NCBI RefSeq assembly: GCF_003122085.1
Contig: NZ_QEXV01000001.1
Location: 1-64,000 of the forward strand
Origin: Marinicauda salina
GTDB taxonomy: Bacteria > Pseudomonadota > Alphaproteobacteria > Caulobacterales > Maricaulaceae
Length of the DNA stretch: 64,000 nt
Direction: 5' to 3'
This document shows, piece after piece, positions 42,368 to 62,174 of this stretch. The notes beneath the pieces were generated by a model that saw only the letters and a list, made by a program, of their open reading frames with translations, was not told the DNA's origin and ran no database searches. Made by a program: the position numbers and the translations under genes. Numbering within the stretch: the first letter of the stretch is position 1; every line of letters starts with the position of its first letter.

Positions 42368-43564
42368 TCAGAACGCGTAGCTCAACGCCGTCCAGACCTT
42401 GGTCCGGTCGGCGAAGCGCGACCCGTCCCCGTCATAGGCGGCCGCCTTCAGCTCCAGGCTCCAGCGGTCTCCGATCGAAAGACCCGCGACGGCGTCGATC
42501 TCCGAGCCGAGATCGCCGCCGCCCCGGACCGCCTCGTACTCATGGCCGACCAGGCGCACGGTCAGATCGCCGACGGCGCTGAAGTTCTCGAACGTCCACG
42601 CGGCCTGCAGCGAATAGTCGTCGATCCCTTCCGGCGGCGTGGCGAGGAAGACGTCCGCCCAGCCCTGGAAAGCGTGGAGCGTGGCGAGCGGCGTCGTGAA
42701 CGCCGTCGCGCCGTCGCCGTCGAGCCGCTCGAAACCGCCGCCGATCGAGAAGGGTCCGTTGTCGAGCGACACCTTGAGCGATGCGTAGTCGTGGTCGAAC
42801 GAAGCGGGGTTGTCGCCGTAGTCCGACTGACGCGCATACGCCGCGGCGTAGCGCGCCCGCCATCCGCTCGCCAGCTCACGCCCGCCCGTCAGCCGCGCGC
42901 CCCAGGTTTGCGAGGACACGGCCGGGGCGTCCTCGAGATCGACGAGATAGCCGTATCCGGTGATCGTCCCGACAGGCGTGTCGAAGGCGGCGTTGAGCAG
43001 GTGGCTGTCCGAGTCGAACTCGCCGACCGGGCTGTCGTCGCCGAAGATGCGATGGACCCGATCGATATAGGCGTAGTTCACCGTCACGCCGGGTATGACG
43101 CCGGTCGTGACCCGCGCGGCGTCGTAGGTCTGCTCGTTCTGGCGAAAGCCGACATTGCCCACGAAGCGGGCGTCGTCGAGGATGACGCGCTGGCGGCCGA
43201 CCGTGACCGTCGTGTCCTCGATTCCGGTCCAGGCGATCTGCGCCCGGTTGAGCTCGACGACCTCGGGATCGGCGACGACCGGAAAGCCCGCGCGCCCGTT
43301 GATCGTGTCGTTGTAGTCGTCGATCAGAACGCCGACCGCCTCGCCCTCGACGAGAAGCTGGAGATCGTGACGCTCCGGCGAGACCCACCCGAACCGGGCG
43401 CGCGCGGTGAGCGCATCAGCCTCTTCGGGCGAGCCGTCCTGGTCGACATGCTCGTAGCGCAGGCGCAGGTCGAGGATTACGCGGTCGGCGAGCGCGCCGC
43501 GGTCCTCATCCGCGCCCGGCGCCCCGGCCAGCGCGGCGGCGGCGAGCGAACTGATGACGCTCAT
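42368..43564 (-). CDS. Outer-membrane beta-barrel porin (alginate-export-like)
   Basis: A 398-residue barrel protein with a signal-like start. Strand pairs alternate with short turns, such as RLRYEHVDQDGSPEEADAL, RARFGWVSPERHDLQLLVEGEAVGV and NVGFRQNEQTYDAARV. The C-terminal residue is Phe, as in many outer-membrane proteins. It resembles alginate-export/porin-like families; the solute is unknown. GGAGGA lies just before the ATG at 43562-43564. A perfect NNR/Dnr-type box centred 62 bp upstream suggests anaerobic or NO control. Confidence 0.75.
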   Translation of the reverse strand: MSVISSLAAAALAGAPGADEDRGALADRVILDLRLRYEHVDQDGSPEEADALTARARFGWVSPERHDLQLLVEGEAVGVLIDDYNDTINGRAGFPVVADPEVVELNRAQIAWTGIEDTTVTVGRQRVILDDARFVGNVGFRQNEQTYDAARVTTGVIPGVTVNYAYIDRVHRIFGDDSPVGEFDSDSHLLNAAFDTPVGTITGYGYLVDLEDAPAVSSQTWGARLTGGRELASGWRARYAAAYARQSDYGDNPASFDHDYASLKVSLDNGPFSIGGGFERLDGDGATAFTTPLATLHAFQGWADVFLATPPEGIDDYSLQAAWTFENFSAVGDLTVRLVGHEYEAVRGGGDLGSEIDAVAGLSIGDRWSLELKAAAYDGDGSRFADRTKVWTALSYAF

Positions 43565-43619: not shown

Positions 43620-43633
43620 TTGCGTCAGCGCAA
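43620..43633 (-). promoter_or_regulatory. NNR/Dnr-type box of the porin gene
   Basis: TTGCG-TCAG-CGCAA is a perfect palindrome with the same half-sites as those beside hemN, norZ and the DUF1858 gene. Read towards the porin, TACACC starts exactly 22 bp after it, the place of a -10 at class II spacing. The decarboxylase ATG is 136 bp away on the other side, so control of that gene is less likely. Confidence 0.65.
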
Positions 43634-43761
43634 ACGCGGGCCCACAAGCGTCTGCGGCGAACCCGCCGCGGTTTGCTCCAGAGCAAGGCGCGGAGCCGGC
43701 GTCCGACGCAGGGTCCGCCCCGACGCGGCCGGCCCGGCCGCCGGAGAAGGATAGAAAACGC

Positions 43762-45617: not shown

Positions 45618-45689
45618 CCCCAACAATGAGAACGCGGCGGCGTGCTCGCGCGTTGCGCTCGCCCGCCCCGACGATCAGGAGCGCTCCGG

Positions 45690-47915
<2,226 letters not shown>

Positions 47916-47953
47916 CCGCCGTCACACCCCGGTTATCGAAAGGGAGACCCGCC

Positions 47954-48415
47954 ATGACCCGACCCGCATTGCTCGCCGGCCTCGCGAGCCTGCCCGCGAT
48001 CGCCGCGCTGGCGGCGTTCGCCGTCTTCGCTCCGGCCGCGAGCGCGACCGAGATCGTCGTCCACAAGAATCCCGCCTGCGGATGCTGCGACCGCTGGGTC
48101 GAGCACCTGGAGGAGAACGGCTTCTCGACGCGCGTGGTCGAGCACGAAGACATGACGCCGGTGAAGGCCGAGGCCGGCGTGCCGCAGGCGCTTCACAGCT
48201 GCCACACCGCGATGGTCGACGGCTACGTGATCGAGGGCCATGTGCCCGCCGCCGACATCGCGCGCCTGCTCGAGGAAGGCCCCGAGGCGATCGGGCTGGC
48301 CGTGCCGGGCATGCCCGCCGGATCGCCCGGCATGGAGCATCCCGTCTACACGCAGGACTACGACGTCATCCTGTTCGACGGGGACGGCCGCACCGTGTTC
48401 AGCGAGCACCGCTGA
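47954..48415 (+). CDS. DUF411 copper-associated periplasmic protein
   Basis: A 153-residue exported protein (signal ending near ASA, residue 32). The mature start IVVHKNPACGCCDRWVEHLEENG has the CxCC metal-binding pattern of DUF411 proteins, which are found beside copper genes. The QALHSCHTAMVDGYVIEGHVP block holds another Cys and His pair. AAAGGGAG precedes the ATG. It follows copA by 38 bp and shares its control. A copper-chaperone role is likely from the family but not shown. Confidence 0.85.
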   Translation: MTRPALLAGLASLPAIAALAAFAVFAPAASATEIVVHKNPACGCCDRWVEHLEENGFSTRVVEHEDMTPVKAEAGVPQALHSCHTAMVDGYVIEGHVPAADIARLLEEGPEAIGLAVPGMPAGSPGMEHPVYTQDYDVILFDGDGRTVFSEHR

Positions 48416-48427
48416 ACCCGGCGGAGG

Positions 48428-50563
48428 CTAGAACCCCGCGCTCACCCGCGCGTAGACGCCGCGCCCCGCGCCGGGCAGGCGCGCCCCGACGGGCACGTCG
48501 GCGTCGGCCACCCGGTTGTACCCGGCGAGATGGCGCTCGTAGTCCTCGTCGAGCAGGTTCTCCACGCCGAGGCTGACGAGGACGTTGTCGCGGGCGTACC
48601 AGTCCAGCCCGATCCCGAGAACGACATGGCCGGGCGTGACCGCCTCGTCGTTGGTCGCGGATACGCGATCCTGCTCGGCGACGAAGCGGCTCTCCAGCGA
48701 CAGGCTCCAGTCGGGCCGGTCCCAGGTCAGGTCGATCAGCAGGCGCGGCGGCGCCATGCGGTAGAGCGCGTCGTCGATGTCGCGCCGCTCGCCGCGGACC
48801 CAGGACGCCACCCCATCGATCCGCCAGTCCGGCGCGATGCGCCAGCCGAAATCGATGTCGGCGCCGACGAACTCCGCGTCGACATTAGCAAAGCGCAGCG
48901 GGGTGGGATCGCCGTTCATCGCCGAGACCATTTCCGTGGGGCTGTCGACGACGCCGGGCGTCGCGTCGAACGGGACGCCCTGGATGAAGTCGTCGACGCG
49001 GCGGTAGTAGACGGTCGGGCGGACATAGGCGCCGTCGCCGCGCCAATCGACGCCGGCCTCGACGGACCAGGCGGTCTCGGGGTCGAGGTCGAGGTCGCCG
49101 ACATAGGTGTTGCCGTCGGCGAGCCCGCCCGAGGCCGGCGTCGGCAGCCAGGCGAAGCGCTCGACATAACCCGGCATGCGGGTCTTGCGCGCCAGCGTCA
49201 GCCGCCAGGTGACCGGCCCGTCCGTCTCGCGCCAGAAGCGCGCGACCGCGTCCATTGTGGTCTCCTCGTTATCCCGATCGGCCAGGTTGTAGCTCGCCGC
49301 CAGCACCCGCGGCCCCATGGGCAGGGCCGATCCGAGATCGGCCTCGCCCGCCGACTCCTCGTGCCGGTCGAGCCGCACGCCCAGCTCGCTCTCGAGCCCG
49401 AAGACCGCACCGGTCCATTCCGCGAAGGCGCCGGTCCGGTCGATCGCGATGTCCGGCAAGGTCTCGACGAAGAACTCCCGGTTGTCGGGATTGGTGATCG
49501 TGACGTCATGGCGCGCTTCCTCGCGGTCGACGCCGAGTTCGAGATCGCCGCCGGCGACGGGCAGGCCGAGCGTGAACTCCGCCGTGACGGCGTCGGCGTT
49601 GGCCCGCGTGAAGCGGCGACGCATGGGATCCGCCAGCGGACGCTGGGTGAAATTGTCCATGCCGTGGGCGACGTCGGTCCAGCCGATGGCGGCGTCGACG
49701 AGGAGCGCGCCGAAGGCCCCCTCGTAGGTCGCGCGCGCGATATCGGTGTCGACGAAATTGATGTCCATGGCGAAGGGCGCGTTGCCGGTCGGCCCGGTGT
49801 CGAGGCGCCGCCACGACAGGTCGAACGCATGGTCGCCGGAGGCGACGCCGCCGCCGATCCCGAAGACGGTGCGCTCGTGACCGCTATTGGGGATATCGCC
49901 GCCGGGAAAGACCGCGTCGCCGCCCGCCTCGCGCGAGAACAGGACCTGGATGCGCCGGCCCTCGCTGGAAAGCCCGGCGACGCCGCCGGCCGCGTACGAC
50001 CCGTCGACGCTGCGCACCGCCGTCATCATGTCGGCGGACGGCCGCAACGCATGGCCGTCGGCGAAATCGACGGATTTGAGGACCACGTTGACGCCGCCGC
50101 CGAGGCCGGGGCCGCGGCTGACCGCGGCGACGCCGCGATCGACCTCGATGCGCTCGACCAGCGGCATCGGCGCGTAGTGCAGCGGCGGATCCATCAGATT
50201 CGGACCGCCGGACAGGACCGCCGCGCCGTCGACGGCGACCGGCGCGCGCGGGCCGAACAGGCCGCGATACTGCACCTGGCCGGAGACCGCGCCGTTGTCG
50301 ATGAGCGCCGCGCCCGGCAGCCGGGCGACGAGGCCTGCGGCGTCCGGGCCGAGCACCGGCGCCTGCTCGGGCGAGATCCGGTCCTCGATGCTCGTCTCGA
50401 TCGCCAGGCGGTAGCCGGTGACCACGATGACGTCCTGGGTCGCGGCTTCCGGCGGCTGTTCGGGCCGCTGGACGACGTGCTCCGAGCCGAATGCGTCAGC
50501 GCCCGGACCGAGCACGAACAGGGCGGGCGCGACGCCCGCCAGCAGGACCGATCTGAGTGTCAT
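48428..50563 (-). CDS. TonB-dependent receptor, probable copper receptor (OprC/NosA-like)
   Basis: A 711-residue outer-membrane transporter driven by TonB. The signal is followed by a TonB-box-like DVIVVTGYRL near residue 43, the plug domain (about residues 55-165) and a 22-strand barrel ending in Phe. The segment HGMDNFTQRPLADPMRRRF recalls OprC/NosA copper receptors, and its place beside nirK and pseudoazurin supports copper. Known family ligands vary, so copper is probable, not certain. Start at 50561-50563 with AAGGGG upstream. It follows pseudoazurin by 95 bp on the same strand. Confidence 0.8.
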   Translation of the reverse strand: MTLRSVLLAGVAPALFVLGPGADAFGSEHVVQRPEQPPEAATQDVIVVTGYRLAIETSIEDRISPEQAPVLGPDAAGLVARLPGAALIDNGAVSGQVQYRGLFGPRAPVAVDGAAVLSGGPNLMDPPLHYAPMPLVERIEVDRGVAAVSRGPGLGGGVNVVLKSVDFADGHALRPSADMMTAVRSVDGSYAAGGVAGLSSEGRRIQVLFSREAGGDAVFPGGDIPNSGHERTVFGIGGGVASGDHAFDLSWRRLDTGPTGNAPFAMDINFVDTDIARATYEGAFGALLVDAAIGWTDVAHGMDNFTQRPLADPMRRRFTRANADAVTAEFTLGLPVAGGDLELGVDREEARHDVTITNPDNREFFVETLPDIAIDRTGAFAEWTGAVFGLESELGVRLDRHEESAGEADLGSALPMGPRVLAASYNLADRDNEETTMDAVARFWRETDGPVTWRLTLARKTRMPGYVERFAWLPTPASGGLADGNTYVGDLDLDPETAWSVEAGVDWRGDGAYVRPTVYYRRVDDFIQGVPFDATPGVVDSPTEMVSAMNGDPTPLRFANVDAEFVGADIDFGWRIAPDWRIDGVASWVRGERRDIDDALYRMAPPRLLIDLTWDRPDWSLSLESRFVAEQDRVSATNDEAVTPGHVVLGIGLDWYARDNVLVSLGVENLLDEDYERHLAGYNRVADADVPVGARLPGAGRGVYARVSAGF

Positions 50564-50658
50564 GACGGGACCCCTTACGCGAATGCAAAGCTTCAATGCG
50601 ATGCGGCGCTTTTAGAAATGCGGCGGCGCGCCGGGGAGAGGACACGCCGCCGCAGGGC

Positions 50659-51147
50659 CTATCGGGCGCCGGTTTCCGCAGGACCGGCGGCCGCGTCGCC
50701 GGCCTCCAGCCGGTCGAAGAGCGCGGCCATGCGCTGAGTGGCGCGGCCCGGGTGACGGACGGCGGCGGCGTCTTCGAGATTGGGCGCCTCGCCGTCGCCG
50801 ACCTTGATCAGGGCGACCATGCCGAGCCCGTAGTGGGGCAGGCATTTCACCCCGTAGACCCCGTCCTCGGTGAGCGTGACGGTGATCTCCTGGTTGATGC
50901 GGCCGCGGAAAGGCTCGGCGCCTTCGGGCAGCATGCCGGCGATGATCTCCGCGTTGTGGCTCGGATCGGTCGCCAGGAAGGTGACGGTGTCGCCGGGCTC
51001 GACCTCCAGATAGGCCGGCTCGAAGACCATCATCTCGCCGTCGGCGCCGCGATTGAGCATCCGGACCTCGTGGTCCTCGGCGAAGGCGGCGTTGGCGGGG
51101 ATGACGGCCGCAATCAGGGTCGCGGCGAGAAGGAGTTGCTTGTTCAT
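50659..51147 (-). CDS. Pseudoazurin (blue copper electron carrier)
   Basis: A 162-residue periplasmic cupredoxin (signal MNKQLLLAATLIAAVIPANAAFA) that normally passes electrons to copper nitrite reductase. The type 1 copper ligands are visible: His in DPSHNAEI near residue 64, then Cys, His and Met in KCLPHYGLGMVAL near residues 102-110. It continues beyond the normal ~125-residue mature form by a charged, Ala-rich tail. It follows nirK by 73 bp and is probably co-transcribed with it. Confidence 0.92.
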   Translation of the reverse strand: MNKQLLLAATLIAAVIPANAAFAEDHEVRMLNRGADGEMMVFEPAYLEVEPGDTVTFLATDPSHNAEIIAGMLPEGAEPFRGRINQEITVTLTEDGVYGVKCLPHYGLGMVALIKVGDGEAPNLEDAAAVRHPGRATQRMAALFDRLEAGDAAAGPAETGAR

Positions 51148-51220: not shown

Positions 51221-52264
51221 CTACTCCTCGTTGAGGTCCTCGAAGACCTCCGGGTTCTCTTCGCCGGTGACCTGGAGGATGCCGGCCAGCCCGCGCTCGA
51301 CCCGCGACAGGGCGTGGTCGACGAGGATGTAGTCGCCGGGCACCTCGACCTCGAAGTCGACGACGGTGGCGCCGCCGGGGGCGACGGTGGTCGTCTGCAC
51401 GTCGGTCACGGGCTCGCTGGTCACCGATCCGAACGGGTACATCCGGTCGAAGATCTCGCCGATCACGTGGAAGCTCGAGGTCTTGTTCGGCCCGCCGACG
51501 CCGAAGAAGATCCGCACCTCGTCGCCGACCTCGGCCTGCAGCGGGTTGTCCCTCAGCGCGCCCGCGGCCCCGTTGAACACGTAGTACTCGGGATCCTCGT
51601 CGAGCAGGCGCTCGACGCTCTCGGTGAGGTGGCCCGGCGTGCCGAAGTCCTCCTCGGTGTAGATCTCGCCTTGCATGACGTAGAACTCGCGGTCGACCTC
51701 GGGCAGGCCGTCCTCGGGCTCGACGACGATCAGGCCGTACATGCCGTTGGCGATGTGCTGGGCCACCATCGGGGTGGCGCAGTGATAGACGTAGACGCCC
51801 GGGTTCAGGGCCTGGAAGACGAAGCTCTTCGTCTCGCCGGGCGCGGCCAGCGTCGCCTCGGCGCCGCCGCCGGGACCCGTCACGGCGTGGAAGTCCACGT
51901 TGTGGAGCATCTGGCTGTCCTCGTCGTTGGTCAGCCGGACTTCCACGGTGTCGCCCACGCGCACCCGGATCATCGGACCGGGCACCTGGTCGTTGAAGGT
52001 CCAGTAGGTGTAGGTCGTGCCGTCGGCGAGCTGGCCGACGACCTCGGTCGTCTCCAGCTCGACCAGGTGGCGGCGCGGCTCGTCATAATCGATCGGCGCG
52101 GGAAGACCGGCCGGATCGGCGACGATGTTGACCGGACCGGCCTCGTCGAGCGCCTGGCCGGCGTCGGCCGCCTCGCCCGCGTACTGGCCCTGGGCCGGGA
52201 ACGCCGCCGCGACGGCGAAGGCTGCGCCCGCGAGCAGCGTGGTTTTCAGATACCGGGTCGTCAT
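51221..52264 (-). CDS. nirK: Copper nitrite reductase
   Basis: NirK reduces nitrite to nitric oxide in the periplasm. The 347-residue two-cupredoxin protein has a Sec signal (about residues 1-27). The catalytic Asp and a type 2 His are in LHNVDFHA near residue 120. Type 1 and 2 ligands are in YHCATPMVAQHIANGMYG near residues 159-176. The second catalytic His is in SSFHVIGEIFD, and the last type 2 His is in VDHALSRVERG. AAGGAG lies before the ATG. The promoter and regulator site lie at 52303-52344. It heads a likely operon with pseudoazurin and perhaps the TonB receptor. Confidence 0.96.
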   Translation of the reverse strand: MTTRYLKTTLLAGAAFAVAAAFPAQGQYAGEAADAGQALDEAGPVNIVADPAGLPAPIDYDEPRRHLVELETTEVVGQLADGTTYTYWTFNDQVPGPMIRVRVGDTVEVRLTNDEDSQMLHNVDFHAVTGPGGGAEATLAAPGETKSFVFQALNPGVYVYHCATPMVAQHIANGMYGLIVVEPEDGLPEVDREFYVMQGEIYTEEDFGTPGHLTESVERLLDEDPEYYVFNGAAGALRDNPLQAEVGDEVRIFFGVGGPNKTSSFHVIGEIFDRMYPFGSVTSEPVTDVQTTTVAPGGATVVDFEVEVPGDYILVDHALSRVERGLAGILQVTGEENPEVFEDLNEE

Positions 52265-52302: not shown

Positions 52303-52344
52303 GTTCTACCGGCGCGCCCGGGGCGGCTTGTTGCGCTCGAACAA
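52303..52344 (-). promoter_or_regulatory. nirK promoter with degenerate NNR/Dnr box
   Basis: On the plus strand TTGCG-CTCG-AACAA (52331-52344) keeps TTG and CAA at the ends, with one intact half-site. Towards nirK, TAGAAC (52303-52308) follows after exactly 22 bp, matching four of six -10 positions. This is class II activation geometry, about 73 bp from box centre to ATG. The box is weaker than its relatives. Confidence 0.62.
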
Positions 52345-52384
52345 ATGGCGCGCCGGTTTTTCAGCGCGGCCGCTTCGCCCGGTG

Positions 52385-52420
52385 AAAAAAGGGGCCCCGC
52401 ACCGTCAGGTGCGGGGCCCC
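52385..52420 (-). terminator. Rho-independent terminator of the DUF1858 gene
   Basis: A perfect 13-bp GC stem (GGGGCCCCGCACC with its complement, 4-base loop) is followed on the minus strand by TTTTTT. It lies 27 bp past the DUF1858 stop and isolates that gene from nirK. Confidence 0.92.
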
Positions 52421-52446
52421 GGAGCGGGGCGGAGCGGCGTCGGAAG

Positions 52447-52686
52447 TCAGGGGAGAGCCGGACTGCGCGCTTCCGGGCCGACGTCCTCGCCCGCCATGGC
52501 CTCGGCGAGCTCCGCAGCGAGGGCCTCGGGCTTCAGCCCGTACTCGCGCGCGGCCTCGCGCACCGTCATGAACGGCGCCATGACGCAGCCGGGACACGCC
52601 ATCCGGTTCCGGACGAAAACCGGCACAGTCTCGGGCTCGGCGTTCATCAGGTCGGCGACGATCATCGAAAGGATGGGTTCAGGCAT
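52447..52686 (-). CDS. DUF1858 domain protein
   Basis: A 79-residue small protein with the DUF1858 layout: DLMNAEPETVPVFVRNRMACPGCVMAPF (a conserved CPGC pair near residue 33) followed by TVREAAREYGLKPEALAAEL. The family often accompanies hybrid-cluster and NO/nitrogen-oxide genes, but its activity is unknown. The CPGC pair suggests metal, thiol or cluster binding. It sits between nnrR and nirK, has its own perfect NNR-type box upstream and its own terminator, so it is a separately controlled unit. Confidence 0.88.
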   Translation of the reverse strand: MPEPILSMIVADLMNAEPETVPVFVRNRMACPGCVMAPFMTVREAAREYGLKPEALAAELAEAMAGEDVGPEARSPALP

Positions 52687-52740
52687 CTCTCGTCTCCACG
52701 GCTTGCGGAGGCGATCCTGCCCGAGGCGCGCCCGGGCGAT

Positions 52741-52754
52741 TTGCGCCGACGCAA
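52741..52754 (-). promoter_or_regulatory. NNR/Dnr-type box of the DUF1858 gene
   Basis: TTGCG-CCGA-CGCAA is a perfect palindrome placed 61.5 bp (centre) from the DUF1858 ATG, 7 bp beyond the nnrR stop. The porin box lies at nearly the same distance from its ATG. A -10 at the expected 22-bp distance is weak (AGGATC). Confidence 0.72.
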
Positions 52755-52761
52755 ATGAGGC

Positions 52762-53460
52762 TCACGCCTCCTCGGCGATCTCCACGAGGCGATGGGGCTT
52801 GAGGATGACGAGACGGCTCGAGCGCCGGCCCTCGAGGATGCCTTCCTCGATCCACGCCGAGAGGGTGCGGCTGACGGTGTGCAGGGTCGTGCCCGTCATC
52901 TCGGCGAGATCCTGGCGCGCGACCGGGAACGGGATCTCGACCCCGACCTCCGTCTTCCGGCCCGACTGGCCGGCGATGCGCAGAATGGCGCCCGCGATGC
53001 GGCGCTCGACCTGCTGGGTCGCGACCTGCTGCAGGCGCTCCTGCAATTCCTCGATGCGTCCGCCCATCATGCCCATGGCCTTGCTGGCGAGGACGGGATG
53101 GTCCTGCATCAGCGCGGTCATCCGCGCCGCGCTCCAGGCCAGCACGCGGGTCTCCTCCACTGCAAGCGGCGTGGCCGGATAGGGCACGCCGCGGAACACC
53201 GCCACCGAGCCGACGAGGTCGCCGGGGCCCATGAATCGGAGCACCACGTTCTTGCCTTCCGGCGTCGTCTGGTCGAGGCGCAGCCGCCCCCAGGCGACGA
53301 CGAAGTGATGCGTCGCTTCGTCGCCCTGCTGAAACAGGGTTTCGCCCTTATCCAGTGCCCGAACCGACGCGCCCTCCGCGGCGTCCTCGATGGCGGCGCG
53401 CTCGAGCCCGCTGAAGAAGTTGGAGCGTTCGAGCACCGCGGTCCGGGCGGAGGCGTCCAT
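52762..53460 (-). CDS. nnrR: Crp/Fnr-family regulator, NnrR/Dnr type
   Basis: A 232-residue regulator. The N-terminal cyclic-nucleotide-like beta roll (about 20-115) is followed by a long dimer helix and a winged helix-turn-helix with LAEMTGTTLHTVSRTLSAW near residue 185. There are no FNR-type cysteines, so it is not an Fe-S oxygen sensor. The gene content and TTGCG-N4-CGCAA boxes fit the NO-responsive NnrR/Dnr group. I chose the ATG at 53458-53460, which has CAGGAA upstream; an in-frame ATG at 53496 would overlap the promoter region. It is divergent from hemN across 95 bp. Confidence 0.85.
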   Translation of the reverse strand: MDASARTAVLERSNFFSGLERAAIEDAAEGASVRALDKGETLFQQGDEATHHFVVAWGRLRLDQTTPEGKNVVLRFMGPGDLVGSVAVFRGVPYPATPLAVEETRVLAWSAARMTALMQDHPVLASKAMGMMGGRIEELQERLQQVATQQVERRIAGAILRIAGQSGRKTEVGVEIPFPVARQDLAEMTGTTLHTVSRTLSAWIEEGILEGRRSSRLVILKPHRLVEIAEEA

Positions 53461-53506
53461 CGGGAGGTTCCTGCAACTGCGCGCGGCGGCGGTCATTTCC
53501 GCATTC

Positions 53507-53520
53507 TTGCGTTACCGCAA
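53507..53520 (+). promoter_or_regulatory. NNR/Dnr-type box between nnrR and hemN
   Basis: TTGCG-TTAC-CGCAA is a perfect palindrome. Towards hemN, TAGAGG (53543-53548) lies exactly 22 bp on, where a -10 is expected. Transcription would begin at about the hemN ATG. Towards nnrR no -10 is seen at that spacing, so effects there would need a different geometry. Confidence 0.72.
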
Positions 53521-53555
53521 ATCGCCGCGCGCGCCAAACGGGTAGAGGGCTGCGC

Positions 53556-54893
53556 ATGAGACACGACATCATCCTCGCCCGCGCCGACGCGCGCGTGCCC
53601 CGCTACACCAGCTACCCGACCGCGCCGCACTTCAGCGCCGACATCGGTCCGGACCGCTACGCCGGCTGGCTGGGCGAACTCGACCCGCAACAGCCGGTCT
53701 CGCTCTATCTCCACGTGCCGTTCTGCCGGAGCATGTGCTGGTATTGCGGCTGTCATACCAAGGCCACGCGGCGGGCCGAGCCCGTCGACGCCTACGCCGC
53801 CGTGCTCCTCGACGAGATCGAGCTGGTCGCCGGGCGCCTGCCCGCGCGCATGAAAGTGAGCCACATCCACTGGGGCGGCGGCAGCCCGACCTATCTCGCG
53901 CCGGCGCGCTTCGTGGAGATCATGGACCGGCTGCGCGCCCGCTTCGACGTGCTGGCCGACGCCGAGATCGCCGTCGAGGTCGACCCGCGCATCTTCTCCG
54001 GATCGATGGCCTCGGCCTTCCGCAGCGCCGGCGTCACCCGCGCCAGCCTCGGCGTGCAGACTTTCGATCCCGAGGTCCAGAAGGCCGTCAACCGGGTCCA
54101 GGACTACGAGTTGGTCGCCGACTGCGTCGAGCGCCTGCGGGCGGCCGGCGTCGATGCGTTCAACATGGACCTCATCTACGGCCTGCCGCTTCAGACCGAG
54201 GCGAACTGCCGCGACAGCGCGCGCAAGGCGCTCTCGCTCGGCCCGGATCGCTTCTCGGTGTTCGGCTACGCCCACGTGCCCCACATGAAGCCGCACCAGA
54301 AGATGATCAGCGAGGACGCGCTGCCCGGCCCGGCCGAGCGGCTCGCCCAGGCCGACGCCATCGCCGAGGAGCTGGTCGCCGGCGGGCAGGAGCCGATCGG
54401 GCTGGATCACTTCGCCCGCCGCGGCGACGCCCTCGCGCAGGCCCTGCACGACGGCTCCATCCGCCGCAACTTTCAGGGCTACACCACCGACGCCGCCCCG
54501 GCGATCATCGGGTTCGGATCCTCGGCGATCGGCTGGCTGCCGCAGGGCTATGTCCAGAACACGCCGATGACTCACGACTGGGAGCGCCGCGTGCTGGAGG
54601 GCCGGCTCCCGACCGCGCGCGGCTACGCCCTCACCGACGACGACCGCATGCGCCGGACGATCATCGAGCAGCTGATGTGCCGGCTCGAGGCCGACCCTGT
54701 CGCGATCGCGGCCGCCCACGGCCTGCCGGCGCCGGAGGCCGATCTCTCGGACTTTCTCCGGGACGGCGTGGTCGCCATGGACGGCTCGCGCATCGTGATC
54801 GACCCGACCTACCGCCCGCTCGCGCGCAGCGTCGCGGCGGCTTTCGACGCCCGCCTCGCGAACTCGACGGCGCGCCACGCGGTGGCCGTCTAG
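53556..54893 (+). CDS. hemN: Oxygen-independent coproporphyrinogen III oxidase
   Basis: This radical-SAM enzyme makes protoporphyrinogen IX without oxygen for haem synthesis. The 445-residue protein has the N-terminal YTSYPTAPHF motif of true HemN, the cluster CRSMCWYCGC (CxxxCxxC) near residues 55-62, GGGSPTYL near residue 108, and the C-terminal HemN domain. The length also fits HemN rather than the shorter HemW. GAGGG lies before the ATG. It supplies haem for NorZ and other haem proteins when oxygen is scarce. Confidence 0.95.
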   Translation: MRHDIILARADARVPRYTSYPTAPHFSADIGPDRYAGWLGELDPQQPVSLYLHVPFCRSMCWYCGCHTKATRRAEPVDAYAAVLLDEIELVAGRLPARMKVSHIHWGGGSPTYLAPARFVEIMDRLRARFDVLADAEIAVEVDPRIFSGSMASAFRSAGVTRASLGVQTFDPEVQKAVNRVQDYELVADCVERLRAAGVDAFNMDLIYGLPLQTEANCRDSARKALSLGPDRFSVFGYAHVPHMKPHQKMISEDALPGPAERLAQADAIAEELVAGGQEPIGLDHFARRGDALAQALHDGSIRRNFQGYTTDAAPAIIGFGSSAIGWLPQGYVQNTPMTHDWERRVLEGRLPTARGYALTDDDRMRRTIIEQLMCRLEADPVAIAAAHGLPAPEADLSDFLRDGVVAMDGSRIVIDPTYRPLARSVAAAFDARLANSTARHAVAV

Positions 54894-54922
54894 GCTCCGC
54901 GGCGCGGTTCAATCCTCCCGAT

Positions 54923-54964
54923 TTGCGCTGCCGCAACTCCGGCTCGCCGGGCTGCGGCTATCCG
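54923..54964 (+). promoter_or_regulatory. norZ promoter with NNR/Dnr box
   Basis: TTGCG-CTGC-CGCAA (54923-54936) is a perfect palindrome, and TATCCG (54959-54964) starts exactly 22 bp after it. This implies a start near 54971 and a leader of about 55 nt to norZ. Confidence 0.72.
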
Positions 54965-55025: not shown

Positions 55026-57314
55026 ATGCAGGACCGCTCCATGAGAAAGATGGGCGTCATCCTGGTCGTGATACTGATCGCCTCGTTCAGCGTCCTGGGA
55101 TGGCTGGGCCGCGATCTGTACCGCCAGGCGCCGCCCATGCCCTCGGCCGTCGTCACGACGACCGGCGAAACCGTCTTCACCCGGGACGACATCCAGACCG
55201 GCCGTCAGGTCTACCAGTCGATGGGCGGCCAGCAGGTCGGCTCGATCTGGGGCCATGGCGGCTATCTCGCGCCGGACTGGTCGGCCGACTGGCTGCACCG
55301 GGAGGCGACGGCCCTGCTCGACGCCTGGGCGCAGGACGCCCACGGCGCGCCTTACGCCGGGCTCGACCCGGAGACGCAGGCCGGCCTGCAGCAGCGCCTG
55401 CAGTCCCAGCTTCGCGAGAACACCTACGACGCCGAGACCGGCGAGATCGTGATCACGCCGGAGCGCGCCGCCGCGATCGACGAGATCGCCGGTCACTATG
55501 TCTCGCTATTCGGCGACTCCCACGCGCTGGAATCGCTGCGCGAGGACTACGCCATCGCAAACGGCGCGATCCCCGATCCCGAGCGGCGCGAAGCGCTGAC
55601 CGCCTTCTTCTTCTGGGCGGCGTGGGCGACGGTCACCGAGCGGCCGGACGACACGGTCACCTACACCAATAACTGGCCGCACGAGCCGCTGGTGGGCAAC
55701 CAGCCGTCCGCCCCTAACGTGATGTGGTCGATCGCCAGCGTGATCCTGCTGATCGCCGGCATCGGCGCGCTCACCTGGTGGCACGCGGGGCGCAAGGAGG
55801 AGCCGGCGCCCACGCCCCCGGCGGAGGATCCGCTGTCGGCGCTCAAGCCGACGCCCTCGATGAAGGCGACCCGGAAATATTTCTGGACCGTGGTGGCGCT
55901 CTTCCTGGCGCAGATCTGCCTCGGCGCGATCACGGCTCACTATTCGGTCGAAGGCCACGATTTCTACGGCTTCCCGCTGTCGGAGATCCTGCCCTACGCG
56001 GTGACCCGGACCTGGCACACCCAGCTGGCGATCTTCTGGATCGCGACGGCCTGGCTGGCCACCGGTCTCTACCTCGCCCCGGCGCTCGGCGGCCGCGAGC
56101 CGAAATTCCAGAAGATCGGCGTCGACCTGCTGTACGGCGCGCTGCTCGTCGTGGTCGTGGGCTCGATGGCCGGCGAATGGCTGGCGGTCCAGCAATTCTT
56201 CGATCTCGACATGAATTTCTGGTTCGGCCACCAGGGCTGGGAATACGTCGATCTCGGCCGGTTCTGGCAGATCCTGCTCTTCGCGGGACTGATGATCTGG
56301 CTCGGGCTGATGGGCCGGGCGCTCTACCCCGCGCTCAAGCAGCCGGGCGAAGGTCAGCCCCTGACCGTGATCCTGTTCCTGTCGACGGTCGCCATCGGCC
56401 TGTTCTACGGGGCCGGGCTCACCTGGGGCCAGCACACCCACCTGTCGATGATCGAGTACTGGCGCTGGTGGGTCGTTCACCTGTGGGTCGAGGGCTTCTT
56501 CGAGGTCTTCGCCACCGCCGCCATCGCCCTGCTGCTGGTCAAGATGGGGCTGCTGCGCAACCGCACCGCCAATCACGCCGTGCTGTTCGCCACCATCATC
56601 TTCCTGACCGGCGGCGTGCTCGGCACGCTGCACCACCTCTACTTCTCGGGCGCCACCACGCCGACGCTCGCCATCGGCGCGGTGTTCTCCGCGCTGGAGG
56701 TCGTGCCGCTGGCCCTCATCGGCCACGAGGCGCTGGAGAACTATCGCATGACCAAGGCGGCGAAATGGGTCCAGGCCTATAAGTGGCCGATCATGTTCTT
56801 CGTCGCGGTGGCGTTCTGGAACCTGGTCGGCGCCGGCCTGCTCGGCTTCCTGATCAACCCGCCGGTCTCGCTGTTCTACGTGCAGGGCCTCAACCTGACC
56901 GCCACGCACGGCCACGCCGCCCTGTTCGGCGTCTACGGCCTGCTCGGCATCGGCCTGATGATGTTCTGCCTGCGCGGCCTGTTCGCGCGGGAGGGCTGGT
57001 CGGACCGCCTGGCCGGATGGAGCTTCTGGCTGCTCAATGCGGGGCTGACGATGATGGTGTTCATGAGCCTGTTCCCGGTCGGGATCATCCAGGCCCACGC
57101 CTCCATCACCGAGGGCCTGTGGTACGCCCGCTCGGCCGAGGTGCTGCAGTCGGAGCTCATCCACTTCTTCGTGTGGATGCGGGTGCCCGGCGACATCGTG
57201 TTCAGCATCGGCGCGGCCGTGCTGGCGGTGTTTGTCGCCCGCCTGGCCTGGACCGGCTTCCGCCGGAGACGGGTCGGGGCCGAGACGCCTCCGCTCGGCG
57301 CGCCGGCCGAGTAA
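55026..57314 (+). CDS. norZ: Quinol-dependent nitric oxide reductase (qNOR)
   Basis: qNOR reduces two NO to N2O using quinol. The 762-residue single chain has one helix near residues 10-30, a periplasmic cytochrome-c-like domain without a haem-binding CxxCH (about 40-230), and the 12-helix NorB core. Key residues are in TWHTQLAIFW near residue 337, WVEGFFEVFATA near 487 and HHLYFSGA near 535. The fused N-terminal domain and absence of norC separate it from cNOR. GGAGGGAG precedes the ATG. It is activated by an NNR-type box upstream. Confidence 0.95.
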   Translation: MQDRSMRKMGVILVVILIASFSVLGWLGRDLYRQAPPMPSAVVTTTGETVFTRDDIQTGRQVYQSMGGQQVGSIWGHGGYLAPDWSADWLHREATALLDAWAQDAHGAPYAGLDPETQAGLQQRLQSQLRENTYDAETGEIVITPERAAAIDEIAGHYVSLFGDSHALESLREDYAIANGAIPDPERREALTAFFFWAAWATVTERPDDTVTYTNNWPHEPLVGNQPSAPNVMWSIASVILLIAGIGALTWWHAGRKEEPAPTPPAEDPLSALKPTPSMKATRKYFWTVVALFLAQICLGAITAHYSVEGHDFYGFPLSEILPYAVTRTWHTQLAIFWIATAWLATGLYLAPALGGREPKFQKIGVDLLYGALLVVVVGSMAGEWLAVQQFFDLDMNFWFGHQGWEYVDLGRFWQILLFAGLMIWLGLMGRALYPALKQPGEGQPLTVILFLSTVAIGLFYGAGLTWGQHTHLSMIEYWRWWVVHLWVEGFFEVFATAAIALLLVKMGLLRNRTANHAVLFATIIFLTGGVLGTLHHLYFSGATTPTLAIGAVFSALEVVPLALIGHEALENYRMTKAAKWVQAYKWPIMFFVAVAFWNLVGAGLLGFLINPPVSLFYVQGLNLTATHGHAALFGVYGLLGIGLMMFCLRGLFAREGWSDRLAGWSFWLLNAGLTMMVFMSLFPVGIIQAHASITEGLWYARSAEVLQSELIHFFVWMRVPGDIVFSIGAAVLAVFVARLAWTGFRRRRVGAETPPLGAPAE

Positions 57315-57764: not shown

Positions 57765-58208
57765 TCAATCGCGATCGGGAAGCGCCAGCAGGCGCGCCAG
57801 CTTGTCGCGCCTGGTGGATATCTCGGCGAGCGTGACCTCGTCGAGCACGCCCAGATAGGCGTCGACGGCGCGCTTGAGCACGCCGATCAGCCCGCACGCC
57901 GGGGTGATGACACAGCGGTTCTCCGCCGGCTTGAAGCACTCGGCCTGGGCGAAGCCTTCCTCCATCACGCGCACCACGTCGCCGACCACGATCTCCTCGG
58001 CCGGACGAGCCAGCCGCAGCCCCCCGCCGCGGCCGCGCACGGTCTCGATGAAGCCGTGTTCGCCGAGCTTGCGCACGATCTTCATCAGGTGATTGCGCGA
58101 AATCCCGTAACCCGCGGCGATCTGCTCGATCGTGCAGCGTTCGTCAGGCTGAACCGCGGCGTAGATGAGTACGCGCAGCGCATAATCCGTATGGGCGGTC
58201 AGCCGCAT
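57765..58208 (-). CDS. nsrR: NO-sensing Rrf2-family repressor
   Basis: A 147-residue Rrf2 regulator. A winged helix (HTDYALRVLIYAAVQ, then GISRNHLMKIVRKL near residue 36) reads DNA. Three cysteines in CFKPAENRCVITPACG (near residues 91-105) match the Fe-S ligands of NsrR, so NO would destroy the cluster and lift repression. It is divergent from nrdD, and an NsrR-like site covers the nrdD promoter. IscR and RsrR have other cysteine spacing. Confidence 0.87.
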   Translation of the reverse strand: MRLTAHTDYALRVLIYAAVQPDERCTIEQIAAGYGISRNHLMKIVRKLGEHGFIETVRGRGGGLRLARPAEEIVVGDVVRVMEEGFAQAECFKPAENRCVITPACGLIGVLKRAVDAYLGVLDEVTLAEISTRRDKLARLLALPDRD

Positions 58209-58288: not shown

Positions 58289-58317
58289 TTCACAAAGAGG
58301 TATATATTGTGCATCTT
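58289..58317 (+). promoter_or_regulatory. nrdD promoter filled by an NsrR-like site
   Basis: TTCACA (58289-58294) is a near-consensus -35, and CATCTT (58312-58317) lies 17 bp on as -10. Bases 58295-58317 form a 23-bp imperfect palindrome with arms AAGAGG and GTGCATCTT. These match known NsrR sites (AAGATGCAT arms), the right arm almost perfectly. A bound NsrR would block the promoter. The site is also about 90 bp upstream of nsrR. Confidence 0.62.
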
Positions 58318-58359
58318 TTTTGCGGACACACCACCCCTTGATTCGAGATGGAGATGACG

Positions 58360-60270
58360 ATGCTCGACGGCCCCCTCTCTCGCGACGCCGACCCCGACGT
58401 CCCGACGCCTTCGCCAGACACCCGGACAACCATCGACGTCGCCCAGGCCGTCGAGGAATACGTCGGCCGCGCCGACTGGCGCATCAAGGCGAACGCCAAC
58501 CAGGGCTATTCGCTGGGCGGGCTCATCCTGAACGTCTCGGGCAAGGTCATCGCCAACTACTGGCTCGACCACGTCTACCCGGCCGCGATCGGGCGGGCCC
58601 ATCGCGAGGCCGACCTGCACATCCACGATCTCGACATGCTGTCGGGATACTGCGCCGGCTGGTCGCTGCGCACGCTGCTCAACGAGGGGCTCAACGGGGT
58701 GCCCGAGAAGGCCGAGGGCGGCCCGCCGAAGCACTTCACCTCGGCGCTCGGCCAAGCGGTGAACTTCCTGGGCGCGTTGCAGAACGAGTGGGCCGGCGCC
58801 CAGGCCTTCTCCAGCTTCGACACCTACATGGCGGCCTATGTCCGGTCCGACGGGCTCGACTACGCCCAGGTGCGCCAGGGGCTCCAGGAGTTCGTCCACT
58901 CGCTGAACGTGCCGTCGCGCTGGGGCACGCAGACGCCCTTCACCAATCTCACCTTCGACTGGGTCTGCCCCGAGGACCTGCGCGACCAGACGCCGCTCAT
59001 CGGCGGCGAGGAGGCCGACTTCGCCTATGGCGACCTCCAGGCCGAGATGGACATGATCAACCGCGCCTTCATCGAGGTGATGTGCGAGGGCGACGCGCGC
59101 GGGCGCGTCTTCACCTTCCCGATCCCGACCTACAACATCACCGAGGACTTTCCCTGGGAGAGCGAGAACGCCCAGCGGCTGTTCGAGATGACCGCGAAGT
59201 ACGGGCTGCCCTACTTCCAGAACTTCATCAATTCCGACATGAAGCCCGGCCAGGTGCGCTCGATGTGCTGCCGGCTGCAGCTGGACCTGCGCGAGCTGAT
59301 GAAGCGCGGCAACGGGCTGTTCGGCTCGGCGGAGCAGACCGGTTCGATCGGCGTGGTCACCGTCAACTGCGCCCGGCTCGGCCATCGCTTCGCCGGCGAC
59401 TGGGACGGACTGATCGCCGAGCTCGACCGCCTGCTCGAGCTCGGCCGCGACAGCCTCGAGATCAAGCGCGTCTTCATCCAGCGCCTGATGGACCAGGGGC
59501 TGTTCCCCTACACCCGGCGGTATCTCGGCACGCTCAGGAACCACTTCTCGACGCTCGGGGTGAACGGGCTCAACGAGATGGTTCGCAACTTCACCGGCGA
59601 CGCCCACGACATCACCACGCCGGAAGGCGAGGCGATGGCGCTCGACCTGCTCGACCATGTCCGCGGCCGCATGGTCGAGTTCCAGGAGGCGACCGGCCAC
59701 ATGTACAATCTCGAGGCGACGCCGGCCGAGGGCACGACCTACCGCTTCGCCAAGGAGGACCTGAAGCGCTTCCCGGACATCCTCCAGGCGGGCTTCGAGG
59801 GCGCGCCCTACTACACCAACTCCTCGCAGCTGCCCGTCGGCCACACCGACGACCCCTTCGAGGCGCTCACCCGCCAGGACGCGCTGCAGACGAAGTACAC
59901 CGGCGGCACCGTCCTGCACCTCTACATGAGCGAGAAGCTGTCCTCGGCGGCGGCCTGCCGGACCCTAGTGAAGAACGCGCTGTCGCGCTTCCGCCTGCCC
60001 TACATCACGGCCACGCCGACCTTCTCGATCTGCCCGACGCACGGCTATCTCGCCGGCGAGCACCACCACTGTCCCAGGTGCGACGCCGAAGCGGAGGCGC
60101 GGCTACCCGAGGGCGCCGCGCTGGCCGAGGAGGACCGTCAGCCCTGCGAGGTCTGGACCCGGGTCATGGGCTATCACCGGCCGGTCTCGGCCTTCAATCC
60201 AGGCAAGCGGAGCGAGCATGAGGAGCGCACCCACTTCGAGGAGCGCCGCGCCGGTCTCGCCGCCGCGTGA
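58360..60270 (+). CDS. nrdD: Anaerobic ribonucleoside-triphosphate reductase (class III)
   Basis: This oxygen-independent glycyl-radical enzyme makes deoxynucleotides. The 636-residue protein has the ATP-cone-free core. The C-terminal zinc site is CPTHGYLAGEHHHCPRC and the glycyl radical is in RVMGYHRPVSAFNPGK near residue 603. The start is probably 58360 (GGAG 6 nt upstream); two ATGs 6 and 12 nt earlier are in frame. nrdG begins inside its last 53 bases, so both are translated together. Its promoter is covered by an NsrR-like site. Confidence 0.94.
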   Translation: MLDGPLSRDADPDVPTPSPDTRTTIDVAQAVEEYVGRADWRIKANANQGYSLGGLILNVSGKVIANYWLDHVYPAAIGRAHREADLHIHDLDMLSGYCAGWSLRTLLNEGLNGVPEKAEGGPPKHFTSALGQAVNFLGALQNEWAGAQAFSSFDTYMAAYVRSDGLDYAQVRQGLQEFVHSLNVPSRWGTQTPFTNLTFDWVCPEDLRDQTPLIGGEEADFAYGDLQAEMDMINRAFIEVMCEGDARGRVFTFPIPTYNITEDFPWESENAQRLFEMTAKYGLPYFQNFINSDMKPGQVRSMCCRLQLDLRELMKRGNGLFGSAEQTGSIGVVTVNCARLGHRFAGDWDGLIAELDRLLELGRDSLEIKRVFIQRLMDQGLFPYTRRYLGTLRNHFSTLGVNGLNEMVRNFTGDAHDITTPEGEAMALDLLDHVRGRMVEFQEATGHMYNLEATPAEGTTYRFAKEDLKRFPDILQAGFEGAPYYTNSSQLPVGHTDDPFEALTRQDALQTKYTGGTVLHLYMSEKLSSAAACRTLVKNALSRFRLPYITATPTFSICPTHGYLAGEHHHCPRCDAEAEARLPEGAALAEEDRQPCEVWTRVMGYHRPVSAFNPGKRSEHEERTHFEERRAGLAAA

Positions 60271-60964
60271 GGCGCCGGGGTTGAGGGTCGGCGGCTTCGA
60301 ACCGTTCTCGACCCTCGACTTTCCCGGCCGGCTGGCCGCCGTGGTGTTCTGCCAGGGCTGCCCGCTGGCCTGCGGCTACTGCCACAACCCGGACCTGATC
60401 CCGGCGACGGCGGAACGCCTGATCGACTTCGACTCCGTCCTGGCGCGTCTCGAGGCGCGCCGGGACTTTCTCGAGGCGGTCGTGTTCAGCGGCGGCGAGC
60501 CGCTCGCCCAGGCGGCGCTGGCGCCGGCGATCGAGGCGGTGAAGGCCCGCGGCTTCGCCGTGGCGCTGCACACCGCCGTGACCGCGCCGGCGCTGCTCGA
60601 CCGCGTGCTCGCGCATGTCGACTGGGTCGGCTTCGACGTGAAGGCGCCCTTCGACCGCTACGACCCGGTGACCGGCGTCGCGAAGGCGGGTCCGAAGGCG
60701 CGCGCGAGCCTGGAGCGTCTCGCCGCCTCGGGCGTTCCCTTCGAGGCGCGCACGACGGTCTGGCCGGTCGCGCTGGACGCCGACGACATACGCGCGATCG
60801 CGTTTGCGCTGCAGCAACTCGGCGTGCGCCGCTACGTGCTTCAAGAGACGCGGACCGCCGACCGCCGGCCTTGGCCGGGCGGGTCGGCGATCGACGACGC
60901 CGCCCTCCTCGACGAGGTCGGCGCGATGTTCGACGAGTTCGAGGTGCGCCGTGCTGAAAGCTGA
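60218..60964 (+). CDS. nrdG: Anaerobic RNR activating protein (radical SAM)
   Basis: NrdG generates the glycyl radical of NrdD with S-adenosylmethionine. The 248-residue protein has the radical-SAM cluster CPLACGYC (CxxxCxxC) near residues 47-54 and VVFSGGEPL near residue 89. It overlaps nrdD by 53 bp, and GGAG lies before its ATG. It is longer than the ~154-residue E. coli NrdG and closer to the larger pyruvate-formate-lyase-activase-like class. It also overlaps the start of nnrS by 14 bp. Confidence 0.92.
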   Translation: MRSAPTSRSAAPVSPPREAPGLRVGGFEPFSTLDFPGRLAAVVFCQGCPLACGYCHNPDLIPATAERLIDFDSVLARLEARRDFLEAVVFSGGEPLAQAALAPAIEAVKARGFAVALHTAVTAPALLDRVLAHVDWVGFDVKAPFDRYDPVTGVAKAGPKARASLERLAASGVPFEARTTVWPVALDADDIRAIAFALQQLGVRRYVLQETRTADRRPWPGGSAIDDAALLDEVGAMFDEFEVRRAES

Positions 60965-62174
60965 CAAGTCCGCCCTGCGCGCGGCCATGCCGCGCGATCC
61001 GATCGCCGCCCGCCGCGAGTACGCCGGTCCCGCGCTGTTCAGCTACGGCTTCCGGCCCTTCTTCCTGTTCGGCGCGCTCTGGGCCGCCCTCGCCGCGCCG
61101 ATCTGGATGGGCGTGTTCCTGAGCGGCGGCGCGACGGTCGGGACCGCGCCGGCGCTCGCCTGGCACGTCCACGAGATGGTGTTCGGCTTTCTCGCCGCGA
61201 TCATCGCCGGCTTCCTGCTGACCGCCGTGCCCAACTGGACCGGCGGGCTGGCCGTGATGGGCGGGCGGCTGGCCGGGCTCTTCGGGCTGTGGGCGGCCGG
61301 GCGCGCGGCGATGCTCGCCCAGGGCGCGGCCCCGGTCGCCGCGGCGATCGTCGACAGCGCCTTCCTGGTCCTGTTCGCGGCCATGATCTGGCGCGAGGTG
61401 CTGCTCGGCGGCAATCGCAGGAACGCGCCGGTGTGCGCGCTGACGAGCCTGCTCGCGCTGGCCAATATCGGCTTCCACGCCGCGCTGATCACGGGCGCCG
61501 ACTGGCGCGCCGCCCAGGGCGCGGCGATCGCCGCGGTCGCGATGCTCATCGCGCTGATCGGCGGACGCATCACACCCAGCTTCACGCGCAACTGGATGAC
61601 CCAGCGTGGGATGAGCGATCTCCCCGCGGCCATGGGCGCGTTCGACGCCGGCGCGCTCGCCGCGGCGGGCGCCGGCCTGCTGGCCTGGATCCTCGCCCCG
61701 ATGGATTGGTTCGCCGGCGCGCTGTTGCTGATCGCCGGGGCGATGCACGCGATCCGGCTGGCGCGCTGGAAGGGCTGGCACACGACGGCCGAGCCGCTCG
61801 TGACCATCCTCCATGTCGGCTACGCTTGGCTGCCGCTGGGGCTCGTCCTGATGGGCGCGTCAGCGATCGCGCCCGGCCCGGTTCCCGCCAGCGCGGCGCT
61901 GCACGCGCTCACCGCCGGAGCGATGGGCACGATGACGCTGGCGGTCATGACCCGCGCCACGCTCGGCCACACCGGTCGCGATCGCGCGGCCGACGCCTGG
62001 ACGCGCCTGATCTACGGGCTGGTCGTGGCCGGCGCGCTCATCCGCGTGCTCGCCCCGATCGCGCTGGGGGCCGGACAGTACGCCGCGCTCGGCGCCGGCG
62101 CGGCGCTGTGGAGCGCGGCCTTCGCGGTGTTCGTCCTGCGCTACGGACCGATGCTCGTCGCGCCGCGTCGGTGA
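60951..62174 (+). CDS. nnrS: NnrS family membrane protein
   Basis: NnrS proteins are haem- and copper-containing membrane proteins that protect cells during NO stress. The 407-residue protein has about 12 helices and the WHVHEMVFGF motif near residue 72, probably a haem or metal ligand site. GGRITPSFTRNWM near residue 204 is also family-typical. I chose the GTG at 60951 with GAGG 6 nt upstream; it overlaps nrdG by 14 bp, so translation is coupled. It is the third gene of an nrdD-nrdG-nnrS operon. Confidence 0.93.
   Translation: MLKADKSALRAAMPRDPIAARREYAGPALFSYGFRPFFLFGALWAALAAPIWMGVFLSGGATVGTAPALAWHVHEMVFGFLAAIIAGFLLTAVPNWTGGLAVMGGRLAGLFGLWAAGRAAMLAQGAAPVAAAIVDSAFLVLFAAMIWREVLLGGNRRNAPVCALTSLLALANIGFHAALITGADWRAAQGAAIAAVAMLIALIGGRITPSFTRNWMTQRGMSDLPAAMGAFDAGALAAAGAGLLAWILAPMDWFAGALLLIAGAMHAIRLARWKGWHTTAEPLVTILHVGYAWLPLGLVLMGASAIAPGPVPASAALHALTAGAMGTMTLAVMTRATLGHTGRDRAADAWTRLIYGLVVAGALIRVLAPIALGAGQYAALGAGAALWSAAFAVFVLRYGPMLVAPRR

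Follow-up and report, generated by a model that had tools for sequence, protein, structure and literature searches.

The nitrite and nitric oxide island

The window analysed here, a 64,000-nucleotide stretch of Marinicauda salina DNA, contains an island of genes for nitrite and nitric oxide (NO) metabolism grouped around nnrR, which encodes a regulator of the Crp/Fnr family. On the minus strand lie nirK, a DUF1858 gene and nnrR itself, with hemN and norZ on the plus strand, and palindromes of the type TTGCG-N4-CGCAA precede four of these genes:

51221..52264, minus strand: nirK, copper nitrite reductase (TIGR02376, 341.2 bits, cut-off 296.3)
52303..52308, minus strand: predicted -10 hexamer of nirK, TAGAAC (leader of 32 nt predicted)
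52331..52344, minus strand: NnrR box of nirK, TTGTTCGAGCGCAA (pattern scan; composite match)
52447..52686, minus strand: DUF1858 gene, hybrid-cluster-associated redox disulfide protein, 79 aa (TIGR03980, 60.9 bits, cut-off 44.95; PF08984)
52741..52754, minus strand: NnrR box of the DUF1858 gene, TTGCGTCGGCGCAA (exact; no TA hexamer at 22 bp)
52762..53460, minus strand: nnrR, 232-aa regulator of the Crp/Fnr family, NnrR group (start codon ATG at 53460)
53507..53520, plus strand: NnrR box of hemN, TTGCGTTACCGCAA (pattern scan)
53543..53548, plus strand: predicted -10 hexamer of hemN, TAGAGG; transcript predicted to start at 53555, one base ahead of the ATG
53556..54893, plus strand: hemN, oxygen-independent coproporphyrinogen III oxidase (TIGR00538, 406.9 bits, cut-off 324.95)
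54923..54936, plus strand: NnrR box of norZ, TTGCGCTGCCGCAA (exact; composite match)
54959..54964, plus strand: predicted -10 hexamer of norZ, TATCCG (leader of 55 nt predicted)
55026..57314, plus strand: norZ, nitric oxide reductase of the norB type (PF22085 and PF00115)

The norZ product matched no NCBIfam model; its length and fused N-terminal domain point to a reductase of the quinol type. Two arrangements around the DUF1858 gene differ in relatives: a Maricaulis locus (L064, 10831-11894) has an extra Crp/Fnr-like match between DUF1858 and nirK, upstream of which TAGAGC follows a hybrid TTGAT-N4-CGCAA box at a distance of 22 bp, and Marinicauda pacifica (L066, 8778-9259) has a tandem pair of DUF1858 matches. 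A search for nosZ gave no match here, but none in any control genome either.

Box position and its conservation

Rechecking the sequence recovered the three exact boxes of the original prediction (52741-52754, 53507-53520 and 54923-54936) and the degenerate copy before nirK, which reads TTGTT-N4-CGCAA toward the gene and carries two mismatches; a fourth exact box, at 43620-43633 before a porin gene, had been missed. Also as predicted, hexamers starting with TA begin 22 bp past the box in three units, namely TAGAAC (52308-52303, minus), TAGAGG (53543-53548, plus) and TATCCG (54959-54964, plus), while the DUF1858 box has AGGATC at this place. If the hexamer spans -12 to -7, the box centre falls at -41.5, the class II position, as judged from the predicted -10 position only. 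Boxes of this type thus precede both the nir gene, with two mismatches, and the nor gene, exactly. The box had been described as of the NnrR or Dnr type: it is of the NnrR kind, and the TTGAT-N4-ATCAA sequence of DNR sites (PMC1274295) is absent from the window, also when one mismatch is allowed.

We surveyed the spacing in 103 sources, comprising the window, 80 named loci and 22 others, with two loci (L016 and L018) omitted because they duplicate the window and L066. Matches to the five target genes and nrdD were considered, excluding those to nnrR, rrf2, tonB and duf454 and those to nirK, norZ, hemN and nrdD that fell below 40% identity or began past residue 60; one gene can yield more than one match. 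The 132 matches gave a qualifying box within 350 bp in 96 cases, 92 of them distinct, from 61 sources. TA stood at offset 22 in 48 of the 92 distinct boxes (3 in the window); offset 21 came next with 10 boxes, and none of the remaining offsets between 8 and 39 exceeded 7. When the window and its close relatives were set aside, 37 of 77 boxes had TA at 22 (next best offset, 10). By gene, this was the case for 4/4 boxes of norZ, 5/8 of hemN, 6/12 of nirK, 19/27 of pseudoazurin and 14/41 of DUF1858. Because the boxes had been picked without regard to the hexamer, the survey independently confirms the -41.5 geometry. Unequal degeneracy of the two half-sites was also considered and rejected, as only the promoter-distal half was degenerate in 18 and only the proximal half in 15 of the 48 boxes with TA at 22 (p 0.73).

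Closer relatives keep individual sites. The nirK box persists in L064, L066 and a third locus (L017) as TTGTT- or TTGAC-N4-CGCAA with TA at 22, and the hemN box is identical in M. pacifica and has one mismatch in Maricaulis, with the same 22-bp spacing in both. The predicted hemN start precedes the ATG by one base in the window, by 0 in Maricaulis and by 2 in Marinicauda, so the hemN transcript is probably leaderless; the remaining two hemN boxes with TA at 22 (L132 and L067) are followed by long leaders. For Caulobacter, 375 leaderless mRNAs have been reported.

Joined to its hexamer, the box becomes rare. The composite TTG-N6-CGCAA-N22-TA occurs four times in the 2,887,656 bases of the genome (0 and 1 for two controls), and all four sites, before the porin gene, nirK, hemN and norZ (43596 and 52307, minus; 53507 and 54923, plus), are in the window. 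The mirror composite, TTGCG-N6-CAA-N22-TA, occurs at three of these four sites and nowhere else (controls 4 and 2). Two further genomes likewise hold the composite only in the matching island (2/2 in G014, 3/3 in G029).

A porin gene 9 kb away

The fourth exact box belongs to an outer-membrane porin gene at some distance from the island:

42368..43564, minus strand: outer-membrane porin, of the Alginate_exp kind by its relatives
43620..43633, minus strand: NnrR box of the porin gene, TTGCGCTGACGCAA (exact; TACACC 22 bp on, 43597-43592)
43673..43686, minus strand: weaker second box of the porin gene, TTGCTCTGGAGCAA, 53 bp farther upstream

The protein itself had no Pfam match; of four relatives tested, one (L200) scored above the PF13372 cut-off and three just below. 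Porin matches numbered 63 among those listed (56 of 385 genomes), and 30 were fetched as loci and checked for boxes. Wherever a porin gene with its own promoter region lies by the NnrR island (the window, L066 and L148), it carries a box with TA at 22 (3/3), with GAGCAA replacing CGCAA in L066 and L148, and a second box farther upstream, at 53 bp in the window and 57 bp in the other two. In L065 and G042 (L200) the porin gene instead directly follows nirK or pseudoazurin. The other 28 homologs showed neither nirK in the short flanks fetched nor a TTGCG-type composite; one of them (L214) has TA 22 bp past a TTGAT-N4-ATCAA box. In M. pacifica (L066, 15430-15936) the porin frame is cut short and the box is kept.

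The regulator

The nnrR product has both the Crp/Fnr sensor and the helix-turn-helix domain (Pfam cNMP_binding and HTH_Crp_2) and, as originally noted, no Fe-S cysteines: there is not one cysteine from the methionine at 53460 onward, and hence no cluster of the FNR type. Maricaulis, Marinicauda and two other relatives have proteins with 75-78% identity to it, and the orthologs of L017 and L018 (78 and 75%) align from the same methionine. A protein of Bradyrhizobium diazoefficiens SZCCT0423 is about 44% identical. A 31-row tree, built from the window, 22 of the 80 named loci, 5 others, FNR and two paralogs of this genome, separated the 28 NnrR-like rows, including Bradyrhizobium, from FNR and the paralogs (support 92/93), the outgroup branches being long and their placement unsure. 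This fits membership of the alphaproteobacterial NnrR group, apart from FNR and FixK; the separation from DNR would follow from the box type and a published statement, not from the tree.

Probable NnrR control and its alternatives

We consider it likely, at roughly 85%, that an NnrR regulon is packed into this one locus. A dimer of the regulator would bind the boxes centred at -41.5 and activate, in class II fashion, nirK (with pseudoazurin and perhaps a TonB receptor), hemN, norZ and the porin gene, and the DUF1858 gene, with a weaker -10, is a probable fifth target. NO would be the signal, as for NnrR of other Alphaproteobacteria. The original prediction had the regulator activating four units; the class II geometry, the NnrR-type box, the lack of cysteines in the regulator and the local character of the set are supported, and with the porin gene, which also carries the composite, the set is larger.

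Several observations, in this and the following paragraphs, weigh against such a regulon. TA at 22 is missing in 44 of the 92 boxes, including that of the DUF1858 gene in the window, and 36 of the 132 gene matches lack a qualifying box altogether. In 47 other genomes the composite has fewer matches than its control (196 and 301, respectively), and the same applies to the 17 of them whose NnrR-like regulator is more distant (70 and 122); confinement to the island is therefore shown only for three close genomes (this one, G014 and G029), where alone the composite by itself marks the regulon. For B. diazoefficiens, PMC6710368 names norCBQD as the sole known direct NnrR target, attributes the drop of nirK expression in an nnrR mutant to toxic NO and describes in vitro activation by NnrR as recalcitrant. 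NnrR is thus described as acting on nirK indirectly or jointly with FixK2, and direct control of nirK by NnrR is an inference here too.

The site at 53507 had been described as lying between nnrR and hemN, and it could serve both, repressing or modulating nnrR besides activating hemN. On the strand opposite nnrR, it occupies the positions 47-60 bp upstream of the start codon, and nnrR of B. diazoefficiens has a box at -66 and is expressed at a lower level in an nnrR mutant (PMC6710368). The position fits hemN, but toward nnrR neither the window nor L066 has a TA hexamer at 22 bp, which makes the additional role rather unlikely.

Alternatively, a FixK/FNR-like paralog (C1:577683) may drive these promoters at low oxygen, nirK above all, leaving norZ and hemN alone to NnrR. 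FixK2 activates B. diazoefficiens nirK in vitro, the box of that gene, TTGTTGCAGCGCAA, is close to the nirK box here (PMC6710368), and the FixK2 consensus TTG(A/C)-N6-(T/G)CAA would admit TTGC-N6-GCAA; moreover, the genome does encode such a paralog, with the recognition helix VETVSR. The paralog, however, reaches 127 bits where the FixK model requires 300, and the composite TTGA-N6-TCAA-N22-TA occurs once in the genome (control 1), outside the island; nor does the window hold the TTGAT-type box mentioned above. The recognition helix also speaks for NnrR: TLHTxSR, which goes with TTGCG boxes, is nearly invariant across 22 sequences of the group, whereas E. coli FNR and the FixK-like paralog have VET. 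We regard a leading role of the paralog as improbable.

That the boxes are chance palindromes of GC-rich DNA is very remote, since their position, spacing and conservation, the conserved spacing above all, speak against it, even though the bare 14-bp pattern is weak evidence (42 matches with up to two mismatches in the window against 47.55 expected; in the genome scan called for by the original prediction, 6 exact sites against 8 for the reversed control or, allowing one mismatch, 83 against 200) and unrelated genes contain or adjoin two of the six exact sites. These two, both on contig C4, were rejected as further targets, one being inside a DUF2336 gene and the other before a DnaJ-domain gene, neither with TA at 22; a gene-transfer-agent tail gene (GTA_TIM, Rcc01698; L146, 8455-10872) adjoins an exact box on that contig.

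Relation to known regulons

The box, the regulator group and most of the targets are already published. Rodionov described in 2005 (PMC1274295) the NnrR motif ctTTGcgnnnncgCAAag, nir and nor targets and, in some Alphaproteobacteria, candidate hemN sites; the consensus and these targets, as in Rhodobacter sphaeroides, are shared by the present locus, but nnrS, an NnrR target there, lies here behind nrdD-nrdG and an NsrR-type operator. In B. diazoefficiens, according to PMC6710368, nnrR, a DUF1858 gene, hemN2 and nirK carry such boxes and are all expressed at a lower level in an nnrR mutant, and the nirK box likewise reads TTGTT-N4-CGCAA. That system differs in having norCBQD and nosRZDFYLX where the window has a norB/norZ-type enzyme, and in its many scattered candidate targets and FixLJ-FixK2 cascade, compared with one locus, porin gene included, here. 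In our own material, the SZCCT0423 stretch (L115) contained neither the published boxes nor matches to nirK, hemN or DUF1858, and another Bradyrhizobium locus (L132) has nnrR, hemN and nirK, the last with the published box. Pseudomonas DNR likewise belongs to the Crp/Fnr family, lacks the cysteine motif of FNR and activates nir and nor genes, but its box is the TTGAT-N4-ATCAA sequence. In the open-access literature we found no paper on NnrR in Maricaulis and none tying NnrR, the nirK transcription start and -41.5 together. The regulon thus appears ordinary of its kind, its apparent additions being the porin gene with a conserved box, norZ, a hemN mRNA that is probably leaderless and, next to the island, an Rrf2 regulator with an NsrR-type operator before nrdD-nrdG-nnrS.

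Neighbouring genes and a possible second switch

Downstream of nirK, and to the right of norZ, lie the following features:

50659..51147, minus strand: pseudoazurin (TIGR02375, 155.8 bits, cut-off 109.85)
48428..50596, minus strand: TonB-dependent receptor, after pseudoazurin (PF00593, PF07715)
57765..58208, minus strand: Rrf2-family regulator, NsrR- or RirA-like (cysteines 91, 99 and 105; best solved relative NsrR 5n07)
58295..58317, plus strand: NsrR-type operator AAGAGGTATATATTGTGCATCTT (two mismatches to AAGATGYATN5ATRCATCTT; mean of 0 in 100 shuffles)
58348..62174, plus strand: nrdD, nrdG and nnrS in a row (TIGR02487; TIGR02495; PF05940 at 61032-62168)

In the survey, the pseudoazurin gene of the window had no box of its own, and the short intergenic gap suggests that it is co-transcribed with nirK. 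The order of pseudoazurin followed by the TonB receptor is kept in L064, L066 and L148; a role of the receptor in copper uptake would be a guess. Between the porin gene and the receptor (45642-48415) are a heavy-metal P-type ATPase gene and a DUF411 gene, perhaps serving copper supply for NirK. Elsewhere in the window (37547-38616), one 14-mer recurs five times in steps of exactly 264 bp, which suggests a tandem repeat.

The Rrf2 protein resembles NsrR in its three late cysteines and in the operator nearby, scored against AAGATGYATN5ATRCATCTT, which we take to be the NsrR consensus. It differs in falling below both NCBIfam cut-offs and in scoring higher for RirA (146.5 bits against 193) than for NsrR (133.4 against 182), so its signal could be iron. 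The operator is conserved in G014 (L148), where its counterpart is AAGAGGCATATTTAGTGCATCTT, but not clearly in Marinicauda or Maricaulis. Together, protein and operator are possibly a second NO switch beside the island, through whose repressor the nrdD-nrdG-nnrS row is predicted to answer NO. The proposal that one box controls the island is too simple, given the porin gene and this potentially separate switch. More tentatively, and somewhat short of an even chance, the locus may form a self-contained two-switch NO module, in which the genome's whole class II NnrR regulon, covering respiration, a leaderless mRNA for haem synthesis and a tandem-box porin, is joined by an NsrR-type repressor that releases nrdD-nrdG-nnrS; if so, anaerobic DNA precursor synthesis would be linked to NO.

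The small regulon and the strict distance from box to -10, recurring in several genera, argue for direct class II activation and offer simple test promoters. The locus suggests that the denitrification regulon includes a porin, hints at a second possible regulator through which anaerobic nucleotide synthesis would respond to NO, and should be useful as a compact test case of an NnrR regulon that is ordinary in kind and somewhat extended.

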